Shown one piece after another: positions 11,887 to 49,128 of a stretch of 64,000 nt of DNA; the first letter of the stretch is position 1, and every line of letters begins with the position of its first letter. Both the position numbers and the translations under genes were made by a program. Source of the stretch: Geomonas sp. RF6 (GTDB lineage: Bacteria > Desulfobacterota > Desulfuromonadia > Geobacterales > Geobacteraceae); NCBI RefSeq assembly GCF_021044625.1, contig NZ_CP087999.1, forward strand, positions 2,001,001 through 2,065,000. Reading direction: 5' to 3'. Under the pieces are notes generated by a model that was not told where the DNA came from, ran no database searches, and saw only the letters and a program-made list of their open reading frames with translations.

Positions 11887-13533
11887 ATGTTTTCCTTTGC
11901 TCCCCGCTCCCTTTCGCTGACCCAAAAGCTCCTGATCCCCATCATCCTGGTGAACCTCTTAAGCACGGCGGCGTTCACAGCGTACCTGTACAAGGAGGAG
12001 AAGAAGGCGGTCATGGCAGGGATCGACCGGCAGCTCGCCGCCGCCGCGTACGGGATGCAGCTGGTCGCCGACACTTTTCACGACGGGCTTGCCGCCAACC
12101 CCTCCCCCGATCCGCAGGATTACGACAAGCTCCTGGAGCGCCTTTCCCGTTACGCGGAGCAGTCGCACCTCAAATACGTGTACACGACCGTCATGAAAGA
12201 CGGAAAGATCCTCTTCACCCTCTCCAGTTACACAAAGGAAGAGAAGGAGAAGGGTTCCTACACGAAGCTCAACGACCCGTACGAGGACGCGAGCCCAGGT
12301 CTCAAAGGGGCATTTAGTGACGGCAGCGTCCACTTCGACGAGTACAAGGACAAGTGGGGGAGCTTCCGCTCCGTCTTCATCCCGTGCCGCTCGCCGCAGG
12401 GCGTGGCGTACGTGGTGGGAGGGGACGTCTCCCTCGCCGAGGTCGGGAGCGCCCTGCGCACCACCCTCTACGGCTGCCTCGCCATCGGCGCGGTCATCTT
12501 CATCGCGGTGACGGTCATCGTCCTTCTCGTGGTGCGCTCCATCTCCGGTGCCGTGCGCAGGCTCGCCGACGGCGTCAACCGCATCGCCGGCGGTGATCTC
12601 GCCGTGGCCATCACCCACGACAGCGGTGACGAGCTCGGCATGCTCGCCGCCGACATGAACGGCATGGTTGCCACACTCCGCTCAGTGGTGGGAAATGTGA
12701 AGGGGGTGGCCGAGCGGGTGTCGGGGGCGTCGCTGCAGCTTTCGGAAACCTCCGATCAGCTGGCCGCCGGAGCGGAGTGCGCAGTCGACCAGGTGCTGGG
12801 GTTGGCCAGCGCGGGTGAGGAGATGGCGACCACGTCGGCGGACATCTCCGGCAACTGCACGCAGGTTGCCGCCAGTGCCCACAGTGCGCTCGTAGCGGCA
12901 AAGGCGGGCGCCACGGTCGTCGATACCACCGTCGGAGTCATGGAGCGCATCGCGGGGCGGGTGAGAAATTCCTCCCAGACGGTGGAGGGGCTCGGAGAGC
13001 GCAGCAACCAGATCGGCACCATCGTCGGCACCATCGAGGACATCGCCGACCAGACGAACCTCCTGGCGCTGAACGCCGCTATAGAGGCGGCGCGTGCAGG
13101 CGAACAGGGACGTGGCTTCGCGGTCGTCGCCGACGAGGTGCGGGCCCTGGCGGAGCGGACCGGGCGCGCCACCAGGGAGATCACCGAGATGATTCGCACG
13201 ATCCAGGTGGAGACGCGCGGAGCTGTTGCCTCCATGGTGGAGGGGGCCGTGGAGGTTGAGCAGGGGACGGCGGAGGCGGCCCGCTCCGGCGCGGCCCTTC
13301 TGGATATAGTCGAGCGCATCGGGGCCGTGGAGTTGCAGGTGGCGCAGATCGCCACCGCGGCGGAAGAGCAGACGGCGACGACCACCGACATCAGCGAGAA
13401 CATGCACCGCATCACCGACCTCGTGCAGAGCACCAGCCGCGGCGCCCACGACTCCGCGGGGGCTGCTGGTGAGCTGCGGGGGCTCGCGGAGGAGTTGCGC
13501 ATCGCTGTGGGGCATTTCAGGCTGGGACTCTAG
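11887..13533 (+). CDS. Methyl-accepting chemotaxis protein
   Basis: A chemoreceptor of 548 residues. TM1 is at about 13-35, a periplasmic sensor at 36-190, TM2 at 193-216, HAMP near 217-270 and the cytoplasmic signalling rod to the end, with the hairpin tip [20 protein letters not shown] and [18 protein letters not shown]. The periplasmic part resembles single Cache-type sensors. It is paralogous to the next gene along its whole length, including 548 residues in both. Its promoter is of the flagellar class. Ligand unknown. Confidence 0.93.
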
Positions 13534-13541
13534 GAGGGAGG

Positions 13542-13566
13542 GGAGCCCGAGAAGGGCTCCTCTTGC
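13542..13566 (+). terminator. Possible terminator after the first chemoreceptor
   Basis: Stem GGAGCCC/GGGCTCC with a 5-nt loop just after the stop codon, followed by TCTTGC. The T-tract is poor, so termination may be partial. Confidence 0.45.
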
Positions 13567-13616
13567 TCAGTCTTTGGCAAAAATCCGATATATGATGCTT
13601 CTCCTATAATTCTTCT

Positions 13617-13643
13617 TTAACAGCTTCATGGTCGTGCCGATAG
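13617..13643 (+). promoter_or_regulatory. Sigma-28 (FliA)-like promoter of the second chemoreceptor
   Basis: TTAA, 15-bp spacer, GCCGATAG. The -10 box is identical to that before the first receptor, while the -35 is one base off consensus. It lies 28 bp upstream of the ATG. Confidence 0.65.
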
Positions 13644-13671
13644 GTACAGTATCTCCCCGTAGGAGGTACCT

Positions 13672-15318
13672 ATGCCGATCACCCTTTCGCGCCCCACCTT
13701 CAGGTTGACTCACAAGCTCCTCGTTCCGATCATCCTCGTCAATCTCGCCAGTACCGCCGCGTTCACAGGCTATCTCTACCACAAACAGAAAATTTCCATC
13801 ATGGCGGGGATCGATCGCCAGCTGACCACCGGTGCACTGGGGCTGCGGCTGGTGACCGACCCCTTCCACGACCGCATTGCGGCAGCGGCTCCTGGTCCCG
13901 GGGAATATCGGGAGCTTCTCGACCGCTTCTCCGAATATGCGGAGCAGGCGCACATCAACTATCTGTACAGCACGGTGCAAAAGGACGGCAAAATCGTCTT
14001 CACCCTATCGAGTTACACGAAGGAGGAGAAGGAGAAAGGGGACTTCAACAAGCTGTACGACCCGTACGAGGATGCAAGCGACGGACTGAAGGCGGCCTTT
14101 GCCGACGGGAAGGCGCACTTCGACGAGTACCAGGACCAGTGGGGAAGCTTCCGCTCCGTCTTCATACCGTGCCGCTCCCCGAAGGGGGTCCCCTACATCG
14201 TGGGGGCCGATGTCTCGCTGGCCGAGGTCGGCGGCCTCATGCGCAGCACCCTGTACGGCTGCCTTGCCATCGGCGCGGTGATATTCCTGGCCGTTACTGC
14301 CATCGTGCTCCTGGTGGTGCGTTACATAACCGGCGCAGTACGAAGCCTCGCCGATGGAGTAAACCGGATCGCGGGGGGGGATCTTGCCGTCACCATAGCG
14401 GATGCGGGGGGGGATGAACTGGGGAGGCTCGCATCGGATCTCACCGGCATGGTGGCGACCCTCCGGGAAGTGGTCGGAAACGTCCAGGGGGTGGCTGAGC
14501 GCGTTGCCGGCGCCTCCATGCAGCTCTCCGAAACGGCCGAGGAACTTGCCTGCGGTGCCGGTCAAGCTCTGGACCAGGTGATGGGGGTGGCGACGGCAGG
14601 TGAGGAGATGGCTGCGACCTCGGGGGAGATCTCCGACAGCTGCGGTCAGGTCGCCAGCAGCGCGGACGGCGCCCTCGAAGCGGCCCGTGCCGGAGCGAGC
14701 GTCGTAGATGACATGGTGGTGGTCATGCAGCGGGTCGCCGGACGGGTGAGGGAGACTTCGCAGACAGTGGAGGGGCTCGGAGAGCGGAGCAACCAGATCG
14801 GCGCCATCGTCGGCACCATCGAAGACATCGCCGACCAGACGAACCTCCTCGCGCTGAACGCGGCGATAGAGGCCGCTCGCGCCGGTGAACAGGGACGCGG
14901 CTTCGCGGTCGTCGCAGACGAGGTGCGCGCCCTGGCGGAGCGGACCGGGCGCGCGACGAGGGAGATCACCGAGATGATCCGCGCGATCCAGCTCCAGACG
15001 GGGGGGGCGGTGGCCTCCATGGCAGAGGGGGTCGAGGAGGTGGAGCAGGGGACGGCGGAGGGTGCCCGCTCCGGCGCGGCTCTACTGGACATCGTCGAGC
15101 GCATCGGCTCGGTCCAGCTGCAGGTGGCGCAGATCGCCACGGCAGCGGAAGAGCAGACGGCGACCACCGCGGAGATAAGCGGCAACATGCACCGCATAAC
15201 AGATCTCGTGCAGAGCACCAGCCGCGGCGCACATGATTCGGCGGGGGCTGCAGGTGAGCTGAGGGGGCTGGCGGAGGAGTTGCGGATCGCGGTGGGGCAT
15301 TTCAGGCTGGAGACGTAG
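13672..15318 (+). CDS. Methyl-accepting chemotaxis protein (paralog of the preceding receptor)
   Basis: A protein of 548 residues with the same plan: TM1 near 13-33, periplasmic sensor, TM2 near 193-216, HAMP, and signalling domain with [20 protein letters not shown]. The sensor regions share runs such as [14 protein letters not shown] and [11 protein letters not shown], so both may sense similar ligands; divergence is larger near residues 40-90. AGGAGGTACCT precedes the ATG. A tandem duplication with retained promoter type is the simplest origin. Confidence 0.93.
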
Positions 15319-15670: not shown

Positions 15671-16977
15671 CAGCGTTGTCCGGTTAGGTTTTTGCTTTGC
15701 GTCGTTTCTGCTTTTTTCGGTTTTTTTTGGCCTCATTTTTTCGCAGTCTAGAGGCTTCAGCTGCCATTCCAGCAGCTTCACTAGCGATTTTGTTTCTTAG
15801 CTCTCTGACACGATTGATGCTCACCCGCTCGTTATGCTGTTCTTGGCAGTAAATGGCCAGGAGAAGGTAAGTGATAAGTCCACTGAGGACCTGCACCATC
15901 ATGCCATACTGGCTTCTGGCGATTAAGTGGTAGACGTTGAGGTATCGTTTCCACCAGCCAAAGAAGGTCTCTATGTTCCAACGTAGTTTGTAGGCTTCGG
16001 CCACCTGTTCAGCGGTAAGGTCATAGCGGTTTGTCGCAACCCAGTATTCCTTTCGGTCAACGCGATAGCCAACTACTCGGAGCTCTTTCTGCCCTTCAGT
16101 GAGCCCCTTCTTGCCCAGAATAACGATGGCGTCATAAAAGACGATGTCACTGTGCGGAAGAGGATTTTGACGGACGACCTTCTTTCTGGCTCTCTGCTGG
16201 ATGCGGCAGATAAAGAGTTTGCCGTCTTCTTGCCACTGATCGAAGTCGGCGTTGCATTGGTACCCTCGATCAAGGACAGCAGTTTCGCCAGGCTGGAGGA
16301 TACGGTCTACATACTGCCGCTCCACCTGGTTAGCGTCAGTCACGACCACACTCGTCGGCACACCACGGTTCAGATCAAGGCCTACGTGGGCTTTGGCTTT
16401 ATTGTGAGTGCTTGAGTACTGCGCCCAATCCATGGACATCAAAGCGTCGATGACAGATCCATCGATGCCAACAAGGTTGCCAAGTTCTGCGTGTTGGGCG
16501 GGAATGACTTTGCGAGCCTCTTTCGCCAGTGCTCCAAAGATTTCAGTGAGTTGTTCGAGTCCACGTGTGTTGATAGCCTCAAAAAAGGCGGATTTTTTAA
16601 CGCCTTTAGGTGGCGCAACACATTCCTTGGCGAAATTGTCCTGTTCCAGGGCCTGGATCAGTTCTCTTCCAGAAGAGAATTCCTGGAGATGGTAGTAGAC
16701 AAGGGCCTTTAGCTGATCGTCGAATGACAGTTGCAACGGTCGGTAACCTCTCGATGTAAGTGGAGAAACAGGGGTGCATGATCTCTTTACTGGGTCGAGA
16801 AGTCTATTAAATTCATAAGGATTCTGAGGCTTTTGTCTGCTGAAGGGACGCATGTCGTAACCACTCCCGAATTACGTAGTTACGAACGCGGCGCGCGCCA
16901 CCCTTCAACAGATGTCAAGCAAAAAGTACAGCAATATCAAAGATTTCAGAGAGCAAGAACCTAACCGGACAACGCTG
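15671..16977 (-). mobile_element. IS4-family insertion sequence, copy 1
   Basis: It is bounded by perfect 20-bp inverted ends CAGCGTTGTCCGGTTAGGTT and carries one transposase gene on the minus strand. It is 1307 bp long and differs from copy 2 at only a few bases (three were noticed), so the duplication is recent. Confidence 0.9.
15684..16853 (-). CDS. IS4-family DDE transposase (copy 1)
   Basis: A protein of 389 residues with an N-terminal DUF4372-like region (MRPFSRQKPQNPYEFNRLL) and a DDE nuclease domain: first Asp in GIDGSVIDAL, second in AVLDRGYQ, and Glu in LRWNIETFFGWWKRYL. The basic tail (KKNRKKQKRRKAKT) is coded next to the left end of the IS. The gene is intact. It differs from copy 2 by Met instead of Val in SQYGMMVQV. 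Confidence 0.93.
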   Translation of the reverse strand: MRPFSRQKPQNPYEFNRLLDPVKRSCTPVSPLTSRGYRPLQLSFDDQLKALVYYHLQEFSSGRELIQALEQDNFAKECVAPPKGVKKSAFFEAINTRGLEQLTEIFGALAKEARKVIPAQHAELGNLVGIDGSVIDALMSMDWAQYSSTHNKAKAHVGLDLNRGVPTSVVVTDANQVERQYVDRILQPGETAVLDRGYQCNADFDQWQEDGKLFICRIQQRARKKVVRQNPLPHSDIVFYDAIVILGKKGLTEGQKELRVVGYRVDRKEYWVATNRYDLTAEQVAEAYKLRWNIETFFGWWKRYLNVYHLIARSQYGMMVQVLSGLITYLLLAIYCQEQHNERVSINRVRELRNKIASEAAGMAAEASRLRKNEAKKNRKKQKRRKAKT

Positions 16978-16983
16978 CCCTGT

Positions 16984-17003
16984 CCCCCCTTCGCAAAGGG
17001 GGG
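16984..17003. repeat. REP-like GC palindrome inside the composite transposon (left)
   Basis: CCCCCCTTCGCAAAGGGGGG directly after the right end of IS copy 1. It is the inverted counterpart of the palindrome at 17660-17680, so the cargo is framed by two of them. Confidence 0.8.
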
Positions 17004-17041
17004 AACTCTAGGTCTCCTGCACCGCCTCGTCGAAGTATAAC

Positions 17042-17526
17042 GAGCTTCGTCCATGCGACCAGCAGCTTGGTGCATGCGACCACCAGCTTCGTGCACGGGA
17101 ACACCAGCTCTGTCCATGCAACCACCAGCTTCGTCCACGCGACCACGAGCTTCGTGCACGCGACTACAAGCTTCGTCCACGCGACTACAAGCTTCGTGCA
17201 CGCAACCACCAGCTTCGTCCACGCGACCACGAGCTTCGTCCACGCGACCACGAGCTTCGCCCACGCGACCACGAGCTTCGCCCACGCGACCACGAGCTTC
17301 GCCCACGCGACCACGAGCTTCGTCCACGCGACCACGAGCTTCGCCCACGCGACCACCAGCTTCGTGCACGCGACCACCAGCTTCGTGCACGCGACCACGA
17401 GCTTCGTCCACGCGACCACCAGCTTCGTCCACGCTACCACGAACTTCGTCCATGCGAACACGAGCTTCGGTGCTCGCCACCACGAGCTTCGGTGCACGCC
17501 ACCACGACTTTAGTGCACGCGACCAC
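17042..17526. repeat. 21-bp tandem repeat array, locus 2 (23 units)
   Basis: Twenty-three units, consensus GAGCTTCGTCCACGCGACC plus AC, 21 bp each except two of 22 bp near the right end. The extra bases shift every reading frame there, which argues against a conserved protein. The central units are most uniform and the edges drift, the pattern of unequal exchange or slippage. Units contain the dyad CACGA-GCT-TCGTG or a near form. The array is the main cargo of the composite transposon and shares its unit with locus 1. Confidence 0.92.
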
Positions 17527-17686: not shown

Positions 17687-18993
17687 CAGCGTTGTCCGGT
17701 TAGGTTTTTGCTTTGCGTCGTTTCTGCTTTTTTCGGTTTTTTTTGGCCTCATTTTTTCGCAGTCTAGAGGCTTCAGCTGCCATTCCAGCAGCTTCACTAG
17801 CGATTTTGTTTCTTAGCTCTCTGACACGATTGATGCTCACCCGCTCGTTATGCTGTTCTTGGCAGTAAATGGCCAGGAGAAGGTAAGTGATAAGTCCACT
17901 AAGGACCTGCACCATCACGCCATACTGGCTTCTGGCGATTAAGTGGTAGACGTTGAGGTATCGTTTCCACCAGCCAAAGAAGGTCTCTATGTTCCAACGT
18001 AGTTTGTAGGCTTCGGCCACCTGTTCAGCGGTAAGGTCATAGCGGTTTGTCGCAACCCAGTATTCCTTTCGGTCAACGCGATAGCCAACTACTCGGAGCT
18101 CTTTCTGCCCTTCAGTGAGCCCCTTCTTGCCCAGAATAACGATGGCGTCATAAAAGACGATGTCACTGTGCGGAAGAGGATTTTGACGGACGACCTTCTT
18201 TCTGGCTCTCTGCTGGATGCGGCAGATAAAGAGTTTGCCGTCTTCTTGCCACTGATCGAAGTCGGCGTTGCATTGGTACCCTCGATCAAGGACAGCAGTT
18301 TCGCCAGGCTGGAGGATACGGTCTACATACTGCCGCTCCACCTGGTTAGCGTCAGTCACGACCACACTCGTCGGCACACCACGGTTCAGATCAAGGCCTA
18401 CGTGGGCTTTGGCTTTATTGTGAGTGCTTGAGTACTGCGCCCAATCCATGGACATCAAAGCGTCGATGACAGATCCATCGATGCCAACAAGGTTGCCAAG
18501 TTCTGCGTGTTGGGCGGGAATGACTTTGCGAGCCTCTTTCGCCAGTGCTCCAAAGATTTCAGTGAGTTGTTCGAGTCCACGTGTGTTGATAGCCTCAAAA
18601 AAGGCGGATTTTTTAACGCCTTTAGGTGGCGCAACACATTCCTTGGCGAAATTGTCCTGTTCCAGGGCCTGGATCAGTTCTCTTCCAGAAGAGAATTCCT
18701 GGAGATGGTAGTAGACAAGGGCCTTTAGCTGATCGTCGAATGACAGTTGCAACGGTCGGTAACCTCTCGATGTAAGTGGAGAAACAGGGGTGCATGATCT
18801 CTTTACTGGGTCGAGAAGTCTATTAAATTCATAAGGATTCTGCGGCTTTTGTCTGCTGAAGGGACGCATGTCGTAACCACTCCCGAATTACGTAGTTACG
18901 AACGCGGCGCGCGCCACCCTTCAACAGATGTCAAGCAAAAAGTACAGCAATATCAAAGATTTCAGAGAGCAAGAACCTAACCGGACAACGCTG
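17687..18993 (-). mobile_element. IS4-family insertion sequence, copy 2
   Basis: It has the same 1307-bp length, ends and orientation as copy 1. Its right flank begins with the second copy of the composite transposon target duplication, GGGGCAGGG. Confidence 0.9.
17700..18869 (-). CDS. IS4-family DDE transposase (copy 2)
   Basis: A protein of 389 residues identical to copy 1 except for Val in SQYGVMVQV. All DDE motifs are intact (GIDGSVIDAL, AVLDRGYQ, RWNIETFFGWW), so either copy could move the unit. Confidence 0.93.
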   Translation of the reverse strand: MRPFSRQKPQNPYEFNRLLDPVKRSCTPVSPLTSRGYRPLQLSFDDQLKALVYYHLQEFSSGRELIQALEQDNFAKECVAPPKGVKKSAFFEAINTRGLEQLTEIFGALAKEARKVIPAQHAELGNLVGIDGSVIDALMSMDWAQYSSTHNKAKAHVGLDLNRGVPTSVVVTDANQVERQYVDRILQPGETAVLDRGYQCNADFDQWQEDGKLFICRIQQRARKKVVRQNPLPHSDIVFYDAIVILGKKGLTEGQKELRVVGYRVDRKEYWVATNRYDLTAEQVAEAYKLRWNIETFFGWWKRYLNVYHLIARSQYGVMVQVLSGLITYLLLAIYCQEQHNERVSINRVRELRNKIASEAAGMAAEASRLRKNEAKKNRKKQKRRKAKT

Positions 18994-19214
18994 GGGGCAG
19001 GGGGGATTTGATCTTCAAGTCTCCAGAACCGCAGACCCTTTAACAGTACATCTCGGTCGTCGGACCTCAGTGCTGCGGCAGTCTAAAGACAACGACATAG
19101 ACACCACCAGTTTTTTACAACCTGGAATCAAAAGAATTGCTTGAGACCACAGCAGTTGCGACTTTGCAGGACGGTGCCGGCCAAGTCAAATCCCCCCTGT
19201 CCCCCCTTCGCAAA
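18994..19214. repeat. Dispersed element copy A, core part
   Basis: About 200 bp that align with the reverse complement of 59136-59345 without large gaps, including ATTTGATCTTCAAGTCTC, AACAGTACATCTCGGTC and GAGACCACAGCAGTTGCG. It ends in the palindrome arm CCCCCCTTCGCAAA where the ISL3 element begins. No open frame is shared by both copies, so a non-coding element is more likely than a gene. Confidence 0.8.
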
Positions 19215-20544
19215 GGTTCTTCTGGGAATTCTGGGGAAAGTTAAAAAAAATAAAGCGACAACGACAGCACTGGGTTATTTTGAGGTTCCCCAACATCAAA
19301 TACTCAGGAGGCTGCCGTTGTCGCAAACCGATCTTATATCATATCTCGGAGGGTGGGAAGGATATCGTATTGCCAAGGTCACCACTTCAGGCACAGACAA
19401 GCAGAAACGGTTCGAGATAGTGCTGGTTCCAAGGTTTCAGGAGAAGTTGCTGTGCCCCAGTTGTGGTAAGCGCTGCACAGGGGTTCACGACACCAGTGTC
19501 CGACTCATACGCGACCTGCCGATACTGGATGCCCAAACGTATCTGAGGGTTCGGCGTCGCAGACTCTGGTGTCCCCGATGCGGACCTGTCCTTGAGGCGT
19601 TGCCATGGTTGGAGAAGTACGCTCGCGTCACAGCCAGACTTGCTGAGAGCGTAGCGAAGTTGTGCTGCGTTCTCCCAATAAAGCAGGTGGCAGAGTTCTA
19701 CGGGCTATCCTGGGATCAGGTTAAGGAGATCGACAAACGGTCTCTGCAAAACGGATTCGGCAGCGTTGATCTCTCGGACGTCGAGGTAATCGGCATGGAC
19801 GAATTTGCCCTTCGAAAGGGGCACGATTATGCAACTGTCATCGTGGAGCCGCACCGCAGGAAAGTGCTGTTCGTGGCAACGGGGAGGGGCCGCGAGAGCA
19901 TTCGTCCGTTCTTTCAGCAACTTGGGGAAGAGGGGTGCAAACGACTCAAAGCCGTTGCTATGGATATGAATGGTGCCTTTGAGACGGAGGTGAAAGCTAA
20001 CTGCCCTCAGGCCGCAATCGTCTATGACCTTTTCCATGTCGTAGCAAAGTACAGCAGAGAGGTCCTGGACAAGGTCCGCAACGCTGAAGCGGACCGCCTC
20101 AAAGATGACAAGAAAGCCCGCAAGGTAATCAGAACCTCGCGGTGGTTGTTGCTGCGGAATAGCCGGAATGTCAAAGGTGACGACATGCTTCGTTTGCAGG
20201 AACTATTGGAAGCAAACCAGAACCTCCTGACGGTTTATCTGCTGAAAGAGGACCTCAAACAGTTATGGCGTTTCAGGTGTACCGAGGAAGCGAAGCTGTT
20301 CTGGGAGCAGTGGCACCGACGAGCGATGGAAAGCAATATTGAACAGCTCACGACGTTTGCAAAGCGGTTGCAGCCCTACCTCCAGGGCATCCTGAATCAC
20401 TGCCTTTATCAACTGCACACCGGCATCCTCGAAGGCATCAACAACAAGATCAAAGTGATCAAGAGAATGGCCTATGGCTTCCGGGACCATGACTACTTCT
20501 TTCTAAAGATTAGAGCGGCCTTCCCCGGAATTCCCGGATGAACC
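19215..20544 (+). mobile_element. ISL3-family insertion sequence
   Basis: The element is 1330 bp with imperfect inverted ends, left GGTTCTTCTGGGAATTCTGG and right (complement) GGTTCATCCGGGAATTCCGG. The flanking 8-bp direct repeat TTCGCAAA (19207-19214 and 20545-20552) matches the ISL3 family habit. The target was the loop of a CCCCCC-TTCGCAAA-GGGGGG palindrome. Confidence 0.9.
19318..20541 (+). CDS. ISL3-family transposase
   Basis: A protein of 407 residues with an N-terminal zinc finger (CPSCGKRC, then CPRCGP), a helix-turn-helix region and the DDE core (VIGMDEFALRKGHDY, AVAMDMNGAFETEV, and a late Glu in GILEGINNKIKVIKR). The TTG at 19318 is preferred because AGGAGG lies six bases upstream and it starts inside the IS; an ATG at 19141 would begin outside the element. 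The stop codon is within the right inverted repeat. Intact. Confidence 0.88.
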   Translation: MSQTDLISYLGGWEGYRIAKVTTSGTDKQKRFEIVLVPRFQEKLLCPSCGKRCTGVHDTSVRLIRDLPILDAQTYLRVRRRRLWCPRCGPVLEALPWLEKYARVTARLAESVAKLCCVLPIKQVAEFYGLSWDQVKEIDKRSLQNGFGSVDLSDVEVIGMDEFALRKGHDYATVIVEPHRRKVLFVATGRGRESIRPFFQQLGEEGCKRLKAVAMDMNGAFETEVKANCPQAAIVYDLFHVVAKYSREVLDKVRNAEADRLKDDKKARKVIRTSRWLLLRNSRNVKGDDMLRLQELLEANQNLLTVYLLKEDLKQLWRFRCTEEAKLFWEQWHRRAMESNIEQLTTFAKRLQPYLQGILNHCLYQLHTGILEGINNKIKVIKRMAYGFRDHDYFFLKIRAAFPGIPG

Positions 20545-43380: not shown

Positions 43381-43724
43381 CCCTGTGGAAGAGGGGGACG
43401 CCCTGAAAGCGCCGGTAAAAGCCGGCGAAGAGTAGGAGGTGCAAGTCGTCCATATAGTAGTGAGAAGCGATCAGCCATAGCCCCGAGTGGTGCGTTGGCC
43501 CATCGTAAGGTGGGAAGGGAAGCGTTCACAGGGGGACATGTACGCATGGCTATTGAGCTCCGAAACCACCCAATCCGAGTGCCGACCTATTAGGGCGGCG
43601 GGGAAGGCAACATAGTTCGCCGCGATAGCGCGAGTGGTGAATCGGCTCGGCGGAGTCAGAGAGCCAGGGCATGCATGCAAGCTGTTTGCACGGAAACCGG
43701 GAGAGCACATGGGCGGGGAGCGAG
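43381..43724. other. Gene-free interval before the RAYT element, possible intron remnant
   Basis: The 344 bp include AGGAGGTGCAAGTCGTCC, ATTGAGCTCCGAAACCACCC and GGCGGGGAAGGCAACATA, which resemble the 5' RNA part of some bacterial group II introns. No reverse transcriptase frame or catalytic domain V was found, so this would be a fragment at best. Confidence 0.3.
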
Positions 43725-44769
43725 GGGTCGCGTCTGTACATTTACAAAAACTAATCCTTTAGTATGGTGGATGGCGAGTAGTCATCTCATCAACTGTAGG
43801 AGGACCTATGTCCCGAGCGCTACGGATGGAATACCCCGGTGCCTTTTATCATGTGACCTCACGAGGAAATGAACGGAAAGAGGTATTCAAGACGCAGAAG
43901 GATCGGGAGAAGTTCCTGGAGTATCTTGGGAGTGCCACGGAGCGCGATGGGGCGATCATCCATGTCTGGTGTCAGATGAGTAATCACTACCACCTGCTTC
44001 TGGAGACGCCTCGCGGCAACCTGTCAGAGATAATGCACCACGTGAATGGAGCCTATACCACTTACTTCAACGTCAAAAGAAAAAGGTCCGGTCATCTCTT
44101 CCAAGGGAGATACAAGGCTATTCTTGTCGAGGCAAGTCAATATGCCACTGAGATTTCCCGATACATTCATCTGAATCCGGTACGGGCAGGCATAGTGGAG
44201 CGCCCTGAAGAGTACCAGTGGTCGAGTTACCGAGGCTACATTGGGGAAGGCCCAGTTCCAAGGTGGTTGCGGACGGAATTTATCGAGGAGTTTTTCGGGA
44301 CAAAGACCAAAGAAGCACAGGTGAAGTACCGCGGTTTCGTGGAGGAGGCGCTCAACGGTGAGTGCGAAAGCCCGTTAGCGGGAGTGGTAGCGGGGTCGAT
44401 ACTGGGTAGGGAGGATTTCGCGGAGACCGTCATTGCCGCGTACCTAGATAAGGACGAGAGAGACGTCAATGTGCCTGCGCTGGGGCAGATATTGGTACCG
44501 GCAGGGCCTGCGCCTGAAGAAATCGTTGGGACGGTTGAAGCAGTTTTTGGTGACAGCAAGAAGAAAGCACGTCAGGCAGCGATGCACTTTTGCCATAGGT
44601 ACAGTGGGGCGAAGCTTCGTGAGATAGCAGGACTATTCGGAGTAAAGGATGCGGCGATTACTGCCGGAAGCCGCCGCTTCGCGGTGCAGTTGGAAGACGA
44701 TGCGAGGTTGAGGGAGATGGCGGAGACGGTAAGGAAGGCGCTGGAATTTAAAATGTACAGACGCGACCC
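43725..44769 (+). mobile_element. RAYT element with flanking 19-bp inverted repeats
   Basis: GGGTCGCGTCTGTACATTT at 43725-43743 is matched exactly by its reverse complement at 44751-44769, enclosing one REP-associated transposase gene. The right repeat codes for the last residues of the protein. A third, slightly changed copy is at 44928-44946. Confidence 0.75.
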
Positions 44770-44773
44770 TTAG
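43808..44773 (+). CDS. REP-associated tyrosine transposase (RAYT, Y1 HUH family)
   Basis: A protein of 321 residues. The HUH motif is SNHYHLLLE (His60, His62), and the catalytic Tyr is probably Tyr119 in ISRYIHLNPVRAG. After the transposase domain (1-180), the C-terminal part resembles a DnaA-like helix-turn-helix region (ALNGE to ITAGSRRFAVQLEDD). RAYTs act as single-strand nucleases on REP palindromes and are usually single-copy domesticated genes. AGGAGGACCT precedes the ATG. Intact. Confidence 0.9.
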   Translation: MSRALRMEYPGAFYHVTSRGNERKEVFKTQKDREKFLEYLGSATERDGAIIHVWCQMSNHYHLLLETPRGNLSEIMHHVNGAYTTYFNVKRKRSGHLFQGRYKAILVEASQYATEISRYIHLNPVRAGIVERPEEYQWSSYRGYIGEGPVPRWLRTEFIEEFFGTKTKEAQVKYRGFVEEALNGECESPLAGVVAGSILGREDFAETVIAAYLDKDERDVNVPALGQILVPAGPAPEEIVGTVEAVFGDSKKKARQAAMHFCHRYSGAKLREIAGLFGVKDAAITAGSRRFAVQLEDDARLREMAETVRKALEFKMYRRDP

Positions 44774-44779
44774 CAGTTT

Positions 44780-44952
44780 CAGTGGGGCGAAGCTTCGTGA
44801 GATAGCAGGACTATTCGGAGTAAAGGATGCGGCGATAACTGCCGGAAGCCGCCGCTTCGCGGTGCAGTTGGAAGACGATGCGAGGTTGAGAGAGATGGCG
44901 GAGACGGTAAGGAAGGCGTTGGAATTTAAAATGTACAGACACGACCCTTAGC
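44780..44952 (+). repeat. Duplicated 3' end of the RAYT gene
   Basis: These 173 bp repeat 44602-44774 with only a few substitutions (for example T to A at ATTACTGCC, G to A in the terminal repeat). The copy has no start and is a non-functional tail. The arrangement is consistent with slippage or one-ended transposition at the terminal repeat. Confidence 0.9.
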
Positions 44953-45217
44953 TTAGCCTCTACCCTTAGCTTAGCCTCTCTGCAGCGCAGCCAAGCATCT
45001 GGGACGGCGTCCATCAGGCCATGCAGCGCCTTTTCGGGTAGGTAGGGGGCACCCCCCCCGAGATCCGAAGATCGTGCTGATCCTGGAGGACCAAGCCGCA
45101 GAGCGGTACCTGGAGTTGCGGCCGTGGCAGAATCCTACGGGATCATGGCGCCGTGGGGCCCGTACCTTCGGCTGCTGCCACTAAATGCTAAGCGTGTAAA
45201 CGCACGCCGGCTTGCAT
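44953..45217. other. Gene-free interval after the RAYT tail
   Basis: It contains a short direct repeat CCCTTAGCTTAGCCTCT and a frame KIVLILEDQAAERYLELRP without a start, which may be a remnant of a lost gene. Confidence 0.4.
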
Positions 45218-46807
45218 TTATTCAGCTGCAACCGCAGCGACCGCAACCGGTGCAGGTGTAAGTGCAGGCTCTGGCTTAGGCGCCTCCGTTGCCAGCTGGA
45301 CCTTTTCGGCCAAAATATCAGCGGCACGTTCAATTTCTACCTTACGAAGGTCGACATGGCCGACTGTATCGGCAATGCCGACGACCTTCACGTCGTCAAC
45401 AAGGAGCGGAAGGAGGTATTCCTGTGTTCTCTTCTTCGCAGCGCTCTTTCCGATAGAGACCTCGAACTCTGTCCAGTCCCGCTCGGGGTAGGTTTCCGAC
45501 AGAAACACGACCATATACAACGCCTCGGAAGAGTAGACTTGTGCCAGCAAAACCCGGAGGTCCTGGCCCCAAAGGAGCGCTTGCTGGTCGAAGTCATAGA
45601 ATACGGAAAGACCCCTATCCTCGAGAGCCCGGACGAATTCCTCAACCGTCGGCCTGATTTCCCCGGCAAAGGAGACAGCAACATCATAGGGGTATTGCGA
45701 GTTCCGGATCGTGATGCGCTTGCGGATCTCTTCGATGTCCACCAAGTTCATGTAGAAGCGGAAGGTGGGATCTTCGATCGAAATGGCTTTGCCTTTCACG
45801 AAGTGAATCGTGTCGTCCAGGCCTTGCTCAGAGATGACCTCTTCAAGATTGTTCAAGCAGTTATAGAAGGATGTAGCCTTCCGCTTCCGCTCCTCTCGCT
45901 CAGGTACAACCCCGACAACGTCCTGGTAAAGGCTAGCCGTTGGAATCTCGGAGCGACGGTCACGGGCGATGCAAGTGACAATATCGAAGTACGTGTTGTG
46001 AACGGCTCGAGCTCGGCGCTTCCCTTGGGCCAGCCCCACAACCTTGTTCATGTACTTCGCGTGGAAGACCCGAAGTACGGACTCCCTCAGGTCTTTCAGG
46101 TCGTAGTGGATGTCCTTGGGATCGCCTTCAACGGTTTCGTCCACTTCGGCCTCGATGCAGCAAGTCTTGCAGATGACCTGGATGACGGACGGAACGCAAT
46201 TGGAGGCGGCAATTATTTGTCCGCAGAGGCTGTCGCCGAACTTGACGTTGAGGGCTTCTTCTCCGAGGCGGATCAAGGTGCGCACGAACCCCTCGTCTTG
46301 CTCCCTCATCTCAAACGGGTCATTCCGGATCCCGAGTTCTGGATCCGCACCGTAGAGGTCCGCTGCGGAAGATGCAATACCGATCACGACGAAGCGGACG
46401 TCCTTCTCGTGCCATAACTTCAGGAGCTTTGCGATTTCGAGCTTAGCTCCAGTGGAGAGGTGATGGAAATCATCGATCACGGTGAAATAAACAAGCTTCA
46501 GCAGGTCGGTGATTTCATCGAAATCCTCAGAGCTACGCAGCGCGCGTGCGAGGACAGATAAGCCGGCATCTACACCTGCGAATTGGCGACCATTGATCCA
46601 AAGGATGTCTTTGGGGGATATTCCGAGTTCCCGGAGAGCATGCGTAACGAGGGTGGTTTTCCCGGTGCCAGAGGCACCAGATATGGTTACATGCTTCCCC
46701 TTCGTTTTGAACGAGGATCGGATGTGGGCGAAGTTGCTCGGCGGTACAAACGTGACCTCTGGATATGCTGCTTCGTTGAAGACCTGTTCAAGAGTGAAGG
46801 TTTTCAT
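45218..46807 (-). CDS. P-loop ATPase fused to a C-terminal TIR domain (candidate defence gene)
   Basis: A protein of 529 residues. An AAA/STAND-like ATPase occupies about 30-250, with Walker A GASGTGKT (44-51) and Walker B YFTVIDDF (Asp112-Asp113). A helical linker follows. The TIR domain is at about 374-500: YDVAVSFAGE, GLSVFYDFDQQALLWGQDL and DWTEFE (444-449), which probably contains the catalytic Glu for NAD+ cleavage. The tail is Ala-Pro-rich. TIR proteins of this build act in bacterial immunity by NAD+ depletion. ATG 46807 fits the promoter better than the GTG at 46840. Confidence 0.85.
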   Translation of the reverse strand: MKTFTLEQVFNEAAYPEVTFVPPSNFAHIRSSFKTKGKHVTISGASGTGKTTLVTHALRELGISPKDILWINGRQFAGVDAGLSVLARALRSSEDFDEITDLLKLVYFTVIDDFHHLSTGAKLEIAKLLKLWHEKDVRFVVIGIASSAADLYGADPELGIRNDPFEMREQDEGFVRTLIRLGEEALNVKFGDSLCGQIIAASNCVPSVIQVICKTCCIEAEVDETVEGDPKDIHYDLKDLRESVLRVFHAKYMNKVVGLAQGKRRARAVHNTYFDIVTCIARDRRSEIPTASLYQDVVGVVPEREERKRKATSFYNCLNNLEEVISEQGLDDTIHFVKGKAISIEDPTFRFYMNLVDIEEIRKRITIRNSQYPYDVAVSFAGEIRPTVEEFVRALEDRGLSVFYDFDQQALLWGQDLRVLLAQVYSSEALYMVVFLSETYPERDWTEFEVSIGKSAAKKRTQEYLLPLLVDDVKVVGIADTVGHVDLRKVEIERAADILAEKVQLATEAPKPEPALTPAPVAVAAVAAE

Positions 46808-46840
46808 GCTTGGGTTACCTGCCTGATCTTTTTGAGCCAC

Positions 46841-46868
46841 TTTAGACTAAGTGCCTTCATTGGAGCAA
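46841..46868 (-). promoter_or_regulatory. Possible promoter of the ATPase-TIR gene
   Basis: Minus-strand TTGCTC, 16-bp spacer, TCTAAA. The start site would lie near 46834, downstream of the alternative GTG at 46840. Confidence 0.4.
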
Positions 46869-47163
46869 GGCGAAAAATTCGTGGCGCGGAGAAGAAACCG
46901 TCTCCTGATCCCCGGGCCGCCCCGGGGCCTGCTCGCCAGCCCAGGCCAAGAGGCAGCGGGGGTACCCCGCCGTGCACGAGGTCGCTCGGAATGGTGGGAG
47001 AGGGACGGGGAGTAGGCGTGCCCGACTTGTGTGAAAGAACGGGACGCCCTAGAAATTTGCGTTCTCCTTTCACATCTTCATACGACTTAGAGGGTAGAAG
47101 AAAAATGAGCCGTACCCCGAAGAGTTACGGCTCATTCTTTACGACATCATTTTTTTACCTACG
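46869..47163. other. Gene-free interval between the ATPase-TIR gene and ssb
   Basis: About 295 bp with a GC-rich inverted stretch CCCCGGGCCGCCCCGGGG at 46910-46927 and the ssb terminator. No convincing frame was seen. Confidence 0.5.
47105..47135 (-). terminator. Rho-independent terminator of ssb
   Basis: A perfect 10-bp stem ATGAGCCGTA/TACGGCTCAT with an 11-nt loop. On the minus strand it is followed by TTTTTCTT. Confidence 0.8.
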
Positions 47164-47607
47164 TTAGAACGGGATCTCGTCGTCCGCGTTGAAGACCGGC
47201 TCGTCGTAGGTGCTCCCCTGGCCGTAGCCGCCGCCCTGGGAAGGGCGGGACTGCTGGCGCTGGCCGCCGCCTTCGCCTTTGCCGGAAAGCATCTGCATCT
47301 TCTCGCCGACGATCTCGGTGGTGTAACGATCCTTGCCGTCCTTGTCCTGCCATTTCCTGGTCTGCAGGCGCCCTTCGATGTACACGGTCTTTCCCTTGCT
47401 CAGGTACTCGCCTGCGATCTCCGCAAGCCGCGCCCACAGGGTGACGTTGTGCCATTCAGTCTTCTCTTCCCACTCGCCGTTCTTGTTCTTGATACGGTCC
47501 GAGGTCGCCAGCGAGAAGGAAGCAACTGCGGTACCCGATGCGGTATAGCGCAGCTCCGGATCCTTTCCGAGGTTTCCGATCAGCATCACCTTGTTAAGAC
47601 TGGCCAT
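47164..47607 (-). CDS. ssb: Single-stranded DNA-binding protein
   Basis: A protein of 147 residues with the OB fold at 1-108 ([52 protein letters not shown]), a Gly-Gln-rich linker and the acidic tip DDEIPF that binds partner proteins. SSB coats single-stranded DNA in replication and repair. AAGGAG precedes ATG 47607; the longer frame to 47667 lacks support. Confidence 0.96.
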
Positions 47608-47703
47608 TCTTTCGTTCTCCTTTTTTTCTCTTATCAGAATTCCAAAACTTATCGTCACCGGCACCATCCGGAGCCGGACGCGTTGGCGGTTCAGGTGCCG
47701 CGC

Positions 47704-47803: not shown

Positions 47804-48670
47804 TCAGGACCTCGCCTCCTCCAGCCGGATCTCGAAGAACTTCGGCCAGCGCTTTCCCGTCACCACCAGCCGGTCGTTGGTGGCGTCGTAGGCGATGCCG
47901 TTTAATACATCTGTCCGCTCGCGCTCCTCCGGGAGGAGGAGCCCCTTCAGATCTATCCACCCCGTTACCTCCCCCGTCGCGGGATTTATCTTCACGATAT
48001 AGTCGGTGCGCCACACGTTGGCGAAGATCTCCCCTTTTACGTACTCCAGCGCGTTCAACTGCGCCAGCGGGACGCCGTGGCAGGTGACCTTGATACTCCG
48101 GTCGGTTGTGAAGCCGTCGGGATTCACGAAGCGGATCGTGCTGGAGCCGTCGCTGACGATCAGGTGCGTGTCGTCGTGGGTGAGCCCCCACCCTGCTCCA
48201 TCGACGCTGAAGTCCCCCACGTGGCGCAGGTTTTCCCTGTTGTAGATGAATCCCGCGCCGGAGAGGGTCAGCTGGTAGATGCGGTCGTTGAAGACGGTGA
48301 TCCCCTCGGCGAAGTACTCGCCGGGGATGCTGCGCCTCTCGATGACTTGCCCGGAGCCGGGCACGATCTGCAGGAGCGCGGAGGCCTCGTACAGCCCGCT
48401 GCTTTCCAGCAGCGTCCCCTCGTGGAAAACGATCCCTTCGGTGAAGGCCCAGTTGTGGTGCGGCCAGCTTTTCACGACCTTGTAGGTGTAGAGGGGGATC
48501 GGGCGTCGTAACGGTCTTGCAGCCGCTGGCGAGGCGCCGGTTGCCTCTCCGGCCGTCCTGGTCGTGGAACGTACCAGTGTCTCAACGCTGGGGGCGCAGG
48601 AGGTGAGGGTGAGGGACGCGAGCAGGAGAAGGGGTGACGCAAAAAGTGTGGGGGCAATCTTGATTTTCAT
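47804..48670 (-). CDS. Glutaminyl-peptide cyclotransferase-like lipoprotein
   Basis: A protein of 288 residues with a lipoprotein signal (LLLLASLTLTSC). The body is that of the beta-propeller glutamine cyclotransferase family: HHNWAFTEGIVFHEGTLLES, YFAEGITVFNDRIYQLTL, DGAGWGLTHDDTHLIVSDGS, LNALEYVKGEIFANVW and GIAYDATNDRLVVTGKRWP. The enzymes convert N-terminal Gln to pyroglutamate on exported proteins. ATG 48670 is chosen for the signal peptide; upstream codons to 48856 are not expected to be used. Confidence 0.88.
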   Translation of the reverse strand: MKIKIAPTLFASPLLLLASLTLTSCAPSVETLVRSTTRTAGEATGASPAAARPLRRPIPLYTYKVVKSWPHHNWAFTEGIVFHEGTLLESSGLYEASALLQIVPGSGQVIERRSIPGEYFAEGITVFNDRIYQLTLSGAGFIYNRENLRHVGDFSVDGAGWGLTHDDTHLIVSDGSSTIRFVNPDGFTTDRSIKVTCHGVPLAQLNALEYVKGEIFANVWRTDYIVKINPATGEVTGWIDLKGLLLPEERERTDVLNGIAYDATNDRLVVTGKRWPKFFEIRLEEARS

Positions 48671-49128
48671 AGCAAAGGGGGCTGCTTTGAACCCGGGACA
48701 GGAGCAGCCTGCCTGTGCATCAGGGGGGGCTTCAACGGTGATGGGCCCAGAATCCGGGGTCCGGGTCGCCGCAACATAGTTTGGGCAGAACCCCCGGAGC
48801 CCTCCACCCCGGATTCCAGTGTACTGGTCAATATACCAATTCTTTCGCAAAGTCAACGTTTTATGCGCGGCTGCAAAAGGTGGTCATGTCGAGAAGGCTC
48901 TGGAATGGGGGTGCGCTCTCAGCCAACTCCCGGCGGCCGCAACGAAGGGAGCCCACGGGGTGTGGCGGATCTTTAAGCCGCGGGCTCCAGCACAATGCTT
49001 ACCGCAACTTTCCACCCTTTCAAGGGGGGGGGCCTAAACGGCGTCGGGGCGACCGTTCATCGCCATAATTATTTGACTCCGCCTGTAAAAGCAAGTAAGT
49101 TAGCCGGGATAAATTCCGGAGTGTGTGA
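48671..49128. other. Gene-free interval between the cyclotransferase and plsC-like genes
   Basis: 458 bp with a CCACCCTTTCAAGGGGGGGG palindrome-like stretch at 49012, related in style to the GC palindromes, and the probable promoter of the acyltransferase gene. No convincing frame. Confidence 0.5.
49073..49101 (+). promoter_or_regulatory. Possible promoter of the acyltransferase operon
   Basis: TTGACT, 17-bp spacer, TAAGTT, about 25 bp upstream of the ATG. Confidence 0.45.

Follow-up and report, generated by a model that had tools for sequence, protein, structure and literature searches.

An intact gene of Geomonas sp. RF6 encodes an ATPase fused to a C-terminal TIR domain. We propose that this ATPase-TIR gene is a putative one-gene abortive-infection switch against phage (probability about 0.6). 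We describe its domain layout, the motifs that never vary, its predicted fold, its patchy spread, and its variable genomic site, and all positions refer to the window, the 64,000-nucleotide stretch of contig NZ_CP087999.1 that was analysed.

The ATPase-TIR gene and its domains

The ORF at 45218-46840 on the minus strand is uninterrupted. Translation from the GTG at 46838-46840 yields 540 aa, and translation from the ATG at 46805-46807 yields 529 aa (529 codons, gene 45218-46807). The ATG is favoured as the start because the relatives begin at the matching residue in the alignment. The sequence-only reading had extended the gene to 46868, which lies upstream of both candidate starts. Full-length intact homologues in 16 other records put the ORF far beyond chance, and the gene is real and intact. 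It is single-copy in its own 5.26 Mb genome.

In the Pfam search, two domains passed their cut-offs, TIR_2 with E 2.3e-12 and AAA_22 with E 1.7e-06, which confirms the earlier description of an N-terminal ATPase joined to a C-terminal TIR in one gene. The absence of target-recognition repeats was also borne out, as neither Pfam nor the structural model showed a repeat domain. Promoter-like boxes of its own had been ascribed to the gene. The promoter scan of 44700-47700 found no site on the strand of the gene and a single site, intragenic and on the opposite strand, where 0.8 sites are expected by chance. The features are as follows.

45218..46807, minus strand: ATPase-TIR gene (ORF; start from the alignment with relatives)
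45713..46807, minus strand: ATPase module, residues 1-365, with AAA+ core, helical lid, and winged helix (Pfam AAA_22, AlphaFold2 model, structural matches)
45284..45691, minus strand: TIR domain, residues 373-508 (TIR_2; match to AbTIR 7uxu)
46655..46678, minus strand: Walker A GASGTGKT, residues 44-51 (K50 in 17/17 copies and in 21/21 rows of the wider ATPase alignment)
46463..46486, minus strand: Walker B region, residues 108-115 (D112, D113, and H115, each 17/17)
46325..46327, minus strand: R161, putative arginine-finger position just before strand 5 (invariant in 21/21 rows)
46187..46198, minus strand: GxPS-type motif, residues 204-207, CVPS in the window copy (G204 in 16/16 relatives)
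45461..45475, minus strand: W445-xxx-E449 with the putative TIR catalytic glutamate (W445 and E449 in 17/17)
47164..47667, minus strand: ssb, the common edge of the variable site (SSB domain; synteny in nine relatives)

Invariant residues

Residue conservation was determined from 17 aligned copies, namely the window copy and L006-L021. K50, D112, D113, H115, R161, P206, S379, W413, W445, and E449 were invariant in 17/17 copies. Lys50 had been singled out from the letters and is indeed the Walker A lysine. The invariance of R161 extends across the 21 rows, which include two ATPase-only proteins. The AlphaFold2 model places a helix at 158-161 and a strand at 162-167, so that R161 ends the helix. 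The arginine finger of AAA+ proteins is located just before strand 5. This position and the invariance suggest that R161 may be an arginine finger, a feature that STAND NTPases lack, as judged from the alignment and the model. A GxP motif lies ahead of the winged helix, in which P206 is kept in all copies and Cys204 replaces the glycine in the window copy. This is one of four positions at which the window copy deviates from the residue common to at least 15 of the 16 relatives.

The WxxxE of the ATPase-TIR was aligned with the W and E of AbTIR. This motif supplies the catalytic glutamate of TIR NADases, and the catalytic Glu is also present in TIRs that signal instead of depleting NAD+. The invariant WxxxE glutamate is E449; Glu447, the catalytic residue named by the sequence-only reading, occupies a variable position with Glu in 1 of the 17 copies.

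Predicted structure

The AlphaFold2 model built from 17 sequences had a mean pLDDT of 81.4 and a pTM of 0.64, and the ATPase part was surer than the TIR part. Residues 1-365 were modelled as an AAA+ core, a helical lid, and a winged helix. A P-loop NTPase followed by such a lid and winged helix is also the arrangement of STAND NTPases. The profile check against STAND families, proposed with the sequence-only reading, stayed below the curated cut-offs (nSTAND3, 17.1 bits vs. 27.2; nSTAND_NTPase5, 14 vs. 34). NB-ARC matches at E ≤ 0.01 were found in 9 of 17 family members.

Over most of the ATPase part, the best solved match was the Walker-type ATPase PABY2304 (2qen; Z 19.2, rmsd 4.5, 300 aligned residues), and further matches were Sso1545 (Z 17.5), Orc1/Cdc6 (16.8), and the Dark apoptosome (15.3, 273 aligned). 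The NBD, helical lid, and winged helix of 2qen, 2fna, 2qby, and Dark align with the model over 273-310 residues (Z 15.3-19.2), and the sequence identity to the ATPase-TIR is 11-15%. To our knowledge, none of these four carries a TIR domain. The PDB sequence search with the ATPase profile yielded mainly RecA, ABC transporters, RuvB, TnsC, and kinases among the 60 of 718 matches listed, and most of these were short P-loop stretches. The ORC/TnsC-like fold of the model suggests that the ATPase module may contact DNA.

The TIR in the full model matched AbTIR (7uxu) with Z 16.0, rmsd 2.2, and 128 aligned residues. When modelled alone (pLDDT 73.6), it matched the NAD-cleaving TIRs SPARTA TIR-APAZ (Z 16.5), plant RUN1 (15.8), AbTIR (15.6), and SARM1 (13.1), and about equally well the scaffolding TIRs MAL (15.4) and MyD88 (15.2). 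Since MyD88 and MAL match nearly as well, the TIR fold alone is no proof of an enzyme. At the level of the models, this would count against an NAD+-cleaving switch.

Proposed mechanism

We infer a phage trigger, oligomerisation, NADase activity, and cell arrest in the following order. In the resting cell, the AAA+/STAND-like ATPase with its winged helix would be inactive. The ATPase module itself would sense a cue derived from phage or from damage; it is proposed as the sensor since the protein showed no additional domain for sensing. The cue would cause the ATPase to oligomerise with ATP, the oligomer would cluster the C-terminal TIRs, and these would cleave NAD+. The loss of NAD+ would halt the infected cell ahead of phage release.

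Both halves are kept at full length in 17 copies with invariant catalytic and Walker residues, and this conservation is consistent with such a switch. It is also favoured by the structural matches to NAD-cleaving TIRs and to PABY2304, Orc1/Cdc6, and Dark, by the patchy spread, by the position of the gene, AT-richer than the window, at a variable site on one side of ssb, by the match to the candidate family PDC-S59, by some defence neighbours of the homologues, and by the precedent of SpbK, whose NADase is activated by TIR clustering. Against it stand the neighbour enrichment, which is not significant, and the phage records and viral contigs, in which no full-length relative was found. By eye, many copies are also surrounded by genes of housekeeping type.

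Distribution and phylogeny

Scanning the genome collection for the pattern picked out 97 stretches, of which 17 encode relatives at 41-61% identity (16 intact and one, L022, frameshifted). Family proteins are about 505-530 residues long. By record, the relatives belong to seven phyla: Pseudomonadota, Thermodesulfobacteriota, Cyanobacteriota, Chloroflexota, Actinomycetota, and those of two MAGs, one Bacteroidales and one Methanoperedens, represented by contigs of 3.7 and 3.1 kb that may be misbinned. The tree mixes phyla (the Pseudomonadota label needs 4 changes; shuffled mean 5.7), which according to the warning of the program is no proof of transfer. Two Marinobacter copies fall in separate supported branches. 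The deep joins of the tree are unsure because of long branches among the plasmid and phage rows. More distant copies (27-29% identity) form a second clade and occur on 5 plasmids with at least 80% of the query covered.

The full-length gene was found in 0 of 57 other genomes of the family and order, and three of the 57 match over the TIR part only. Together with the patchy spread elsewhere, this agrees with the earlier view of an accessory rather than core gene. The result holds at the family and order level, as the genomes searched included no second genome of Geomonas. The ATPase query found matches in 2 of 394 other genomes of its own phylum at E ≤ 1e-8. The ATPase profile (E ≤ 1e-10, centre genome excluded) matched at least 11 of 397 genomes in the phylum of Pseudoxanthomonas, at least 4 of 345 in that of Cryobacterium, and 0 of 291 in that of Waterburya, and these counts may be low, with about 5 or 6 first-look candidates scored per genome. 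In two of the new profile matches, L032 and L035, the ATPase is by eye followed by a TIR. The 11 pattern stretches in viral contigs encoded no relative, and the phage records gave two matches, one over residues 8-364 and one to the TIR only, with no full-length relative. The ATPase-TIR family is rare and patchily spread.

The variable site beside ssb

The ATPase-TIR gene has a GC content of 0.545 and a GC3 of 0.651, compared with a GC of 0.607 for the window and a GC3 of 0.774 for ssb. The RAYT and NERD genes are similar in GC (0.539 and 0.542). Nine relatives, picked as the best SSB matches, were used for synteny. Eight of the nine have the PlsC, TPR, and RNase J genes in the vicinity of ssb (about 4 kb off in one). 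The ATPase-TIR, RAYT, NERD, and radical SAM genes and the gene at 47804-48856 were found in 0/9 within about 7 kb of ssb in either direction (tblastn, E ≤ 1e-8). Gene content on the ATPase-TIR side of ssb differs among the nine relatives. Four share a gene of about 450 aa on that side, which adjoins ssb in one and is 2-5 kb off in three. One of the nine (L094, 7441-14408) carries HsdR and HsdS (Pfam) after a 283-aa ORF, and the remaining relatives carry other, differing genes. The ssb-side site is possibly a variable site for defence genes in the family.

RAYT and NERD had been named as neighbours, and both genes are real (RAYT: REP_Tyr_transpos, 83.7 bits, cut-off 80). Their reading as a defence setting found no echo in PADLOC, which over the 49 window ORFs otherwise gave only SspH (4.6e-60), mad8 (1.2e-43), and HEAT-ARM_XIII (2.1e-13), in one ORF each.

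In the stretch 43719-44952, an imperfect inverted repeat of 24 nt (43720-43743 and 44751-44774, 92%) bounds the RAYT gene, whose 3' end is tandemly duplicated (44597-44774 and 44775-44952, 178 nt, 97%). Just past the duplicated end, 44945-44979 contains two exact neighbouring copies of the 17-base CCCTTAGCTTAGCCTCT, a pattern seen in 0 of 100 shuffles.

Neighbours of the homologues

Of the 167 neighbour ORFs listed for 22 loci, the neighbour scan covered the 113 of 15 loci. The 54 ORFs of the five plasmid loci, L052, and L053 were left out, and the contigs of L012 and L015 were too short to be used. The controls were 105 ORFs, at most 12 per stretch, from 11 stretches in 11 of the same genomes, with 29 own-genome ORFs, one of L068, and all of L065 left out. 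Neighbour and control ORFs came from our own composition-based caller, and those above 1300 aa were excluded. The first 25 defence families of 39 and of 31 were listed, and the counts are therefore lower bounds. Among the families listed at E ≤ 1e-15, the neighbours contained a pPIWI_RE module, Thoeris ThsA/ThsB, a Drt4-type gene, and mad3, and the controls contained Cas12b as a clear defence system. Other control matches among those listed (PDC-S48, PD-T4-6, LmuB, DEDDh, 2OG, RtcR, mad2, mad3, and mad6) were judged generic or unvalidated. Defence enrichment was not significant (at least 3/15 loci vs. at least 1/11 control stretches, Fisher p 0.61).

By locus, the clear defence genes were pPIWI_RE at L009, Thoeris at L022, and a reverse transcriptase (RVT_1) at L018, which we take to be the one Drt4 match of the scan. 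A TIR gene lies near L007. Neighbours in the plasmid clade, partly from record annotation, were caspase and TIR genes at L023, ThsB-like, patatin, TIR, and macro genes at L024, and patatin and TIR genes 4-8 kb off at L026. Small recurring groups among the 22 loci were ABC-type ATPases, integrase-like genes, ThsB-like TIRs, and two pairs.

The sole recurring defence-type neighbour is a ThsB-like or related TIR, found at L022, L024, and L026 (3/22 loci). It bears on the first alternative, in which the TIR, instead of depleting NAD+ itself, would produce a cyclic ADP-ribose isomer as a signal to another effector protein, or would partner ThsB-type TIRs as in Thoeris. Weak ThsB model matches in 15 of 17 members point the same way, and so does the stretch 8001-12318 of L022, where the frameshifted Marinobacter MAG copy is followed at a distance of about 0.9 kb by a Thoeris ThsA/ThsB pair. 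However, all-against-all BLAST of the 168 neighbours found no conserved partner, and no gene is common to more than a few of the 22 loci. STALD gave no match in the own genome, but also none in 14 control genomes (0/14), so absence is not implied. We consider this alternative unlikely, yet the strongest of those that compete with the abortive-infection switch.

ATPase-only relatives and PADLOC candidates

The window protein matched two unvalidated PADLOC candidates, PDC-S59 over residues 109-328 (E 2.4-2.5e-15; model positions 155-373 of 428) and PDC-S66 over the TIR (residues 363-467, E 2.1e-11). All 17 aligned members match both. PDC-S59 and PDC-S66 are separate candidates and no single model match spans the fusion, so annotation pipelines may miss the fusion or name only the TIR. 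The PADLOC candidates come from a guilt-by-embedding screen, the majority without validation according to the available part of PMC12988326. No mention of PDC-S59 was found in the literature searched.

The best PDC-S59 match is a Shewanella protein (7.6e-66), which is an ATPase without TIR by Pfam, encoded on a conjugative plasmid 76 bases upstream of an AbiTii gene. The Clostridioides phage ATPase, also without TIR (PDC-S59 1.7e-23), is followed 20 bases downstream by a DpnII-MboI nuclease gene, and the two (L029 7995-9994) are possibly a phage-borne defence pair. ATPase-only genes with a close downstream gene on the same strand were seen at L027, L029, and L033 (the gene of L033 has no Pfam match), and a PIN_8 gene lies 0.7 kb downstream at L054. 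By eye, the remaining ATPase-only loci examined showed no evident close partner.

The adjacency at two or three loci suggests that the outputs of the ATPase are exchangeable. We tentatively speculate, with low confidence, that the protein is a repeat-free, inverted minimal NLR. The ORC/TnsC-like AAA+ module would be both sensor and assembly engine, serving as a general infection sensor with a TIR output in cis or an AbiTii or DpnII-like nuclease in trans.

These plasmid and phage relatives also bear on the second alternative, in which the protein, rather than acting on phage, would counter plasmids or other mobile DNA or would stabilise mobile elements. The distant relatives on plasmids (cover of at least 80% in 5) and the hint of DNA contact in the fold would fit it. 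Integrase-like neighbours also recur, with related genes adjoining four loci (L017 3885-4766; L025 5465-6103 and 9761-11203; L026 10835-11776; L030 5570-7084), and those of L025 and L026 are annotated as site-specific integrases. On the other hand, 13 of the 17 close homologues come from contigs >30 kb, mostly with chromosome-like genes by eye, which could still be plasmids, and no antitoxin partner was seen. This explanation is improbable in our view.

A stress-response or regulatory ATPase that uses the TIR for interaction, with no role in defence, is very improbable: AAA_22-type ATPases also perform housekeeping roles, many copies sit among housekeeping-like, non-defence genes (by eye), and the TIR model is matched equally well by scaffolding TIRs and by NADases, but the family is rare and patchy in the three phyla profiled, the catalytic Glu of the TIR is invariant, and the tree mixes phyla.

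Comparison with known systems

The layout of the ATPase-TIR, with the ATPase followed by the TIR and no repeats, does not match TIR-NLR, bNACHT, or Avs. The TIR-NLR of P4-like satellites has an N-terminal TIR, a STAND, and C-terminal TPRs (Rousset et al. 2022, PMC9122126). As far as the available text of that paper goes, both are single genes with a TIR and a STAND-type NTPase for which NTP-driven oligomerisation and NAD+ loss are proposed, whereas in TIR-NLR the TIR is an N-terminal effector and the TPRs are the proposed sensor, and the ATPase-TIR is reversed and without repeats. The accessible part of a review of NLR-like proteins likewise gives an N-terminal effector, a central NACHT, and a C-terminal sensor (PMC10952713).

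The TIR is C-terminal in the ATPase-TIR, as in SpbK and AbTIR/BtTIR, which are not known to have an ATPase at the N-terminus. One of the closest TIR structures is that of AbTIR. Clustering of the TIRs drives the NADase activity of SpbK, according to the portion of PMC12847820 available. Retron-TIR (NF042941) also has a C-terminal TIR (E 1.7e-07, residues 364-484 of the 540-aa form) but differs in its partner domain, a reverse transcriptase, and the match reached 30.4 bits vs. a cut-off of 600. Membership in Thoeris was considered and rejected, with 20.5 bits for the ThsB model and ThsA in 0/49 window ORFs at E ≤ 1e-8.

TIR-AP-ATPase fusions are known in multicellular bacteria, and the case described in the available part of PMC7159879 has an N-terminal TIR. 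Terms for an ATPase were not found in the text at hand of PMC13142454, on a horizontally moved TIR protein. No defence protein with the ATPase-TIR layout was recognised among the listed titles and abstract openings, which were a minority of the matching papers, with thin coverage of subscription journals. The parts and logic of the ATPase-TIR are known; its arrangement and the question of self-sensing appear to be new. The NLR-like defences in the available parts of PMC9122126 and PMC10952713 carry a separate C-terminal sensor, whereas the ATPase-TIR has no added sensor. In this small protein, how the ATPase itself senses infection would be directly testable.

Other features of the window

Two 389-aa transposase ORFs with identical first 50 residues were found at 15684-16853 (DDE_Tnp_1, Pfam) and 17700-18869. 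The ORF between them (16961-17497) has a repeated TKLVVA-type unit and no Pfam match, and an ISL3 transposase (19141-20541) follows the pair. Two tandem 548-aa ORFs with similar N-termini, chemoreceptor-like by eye, occupy 11887-15318.
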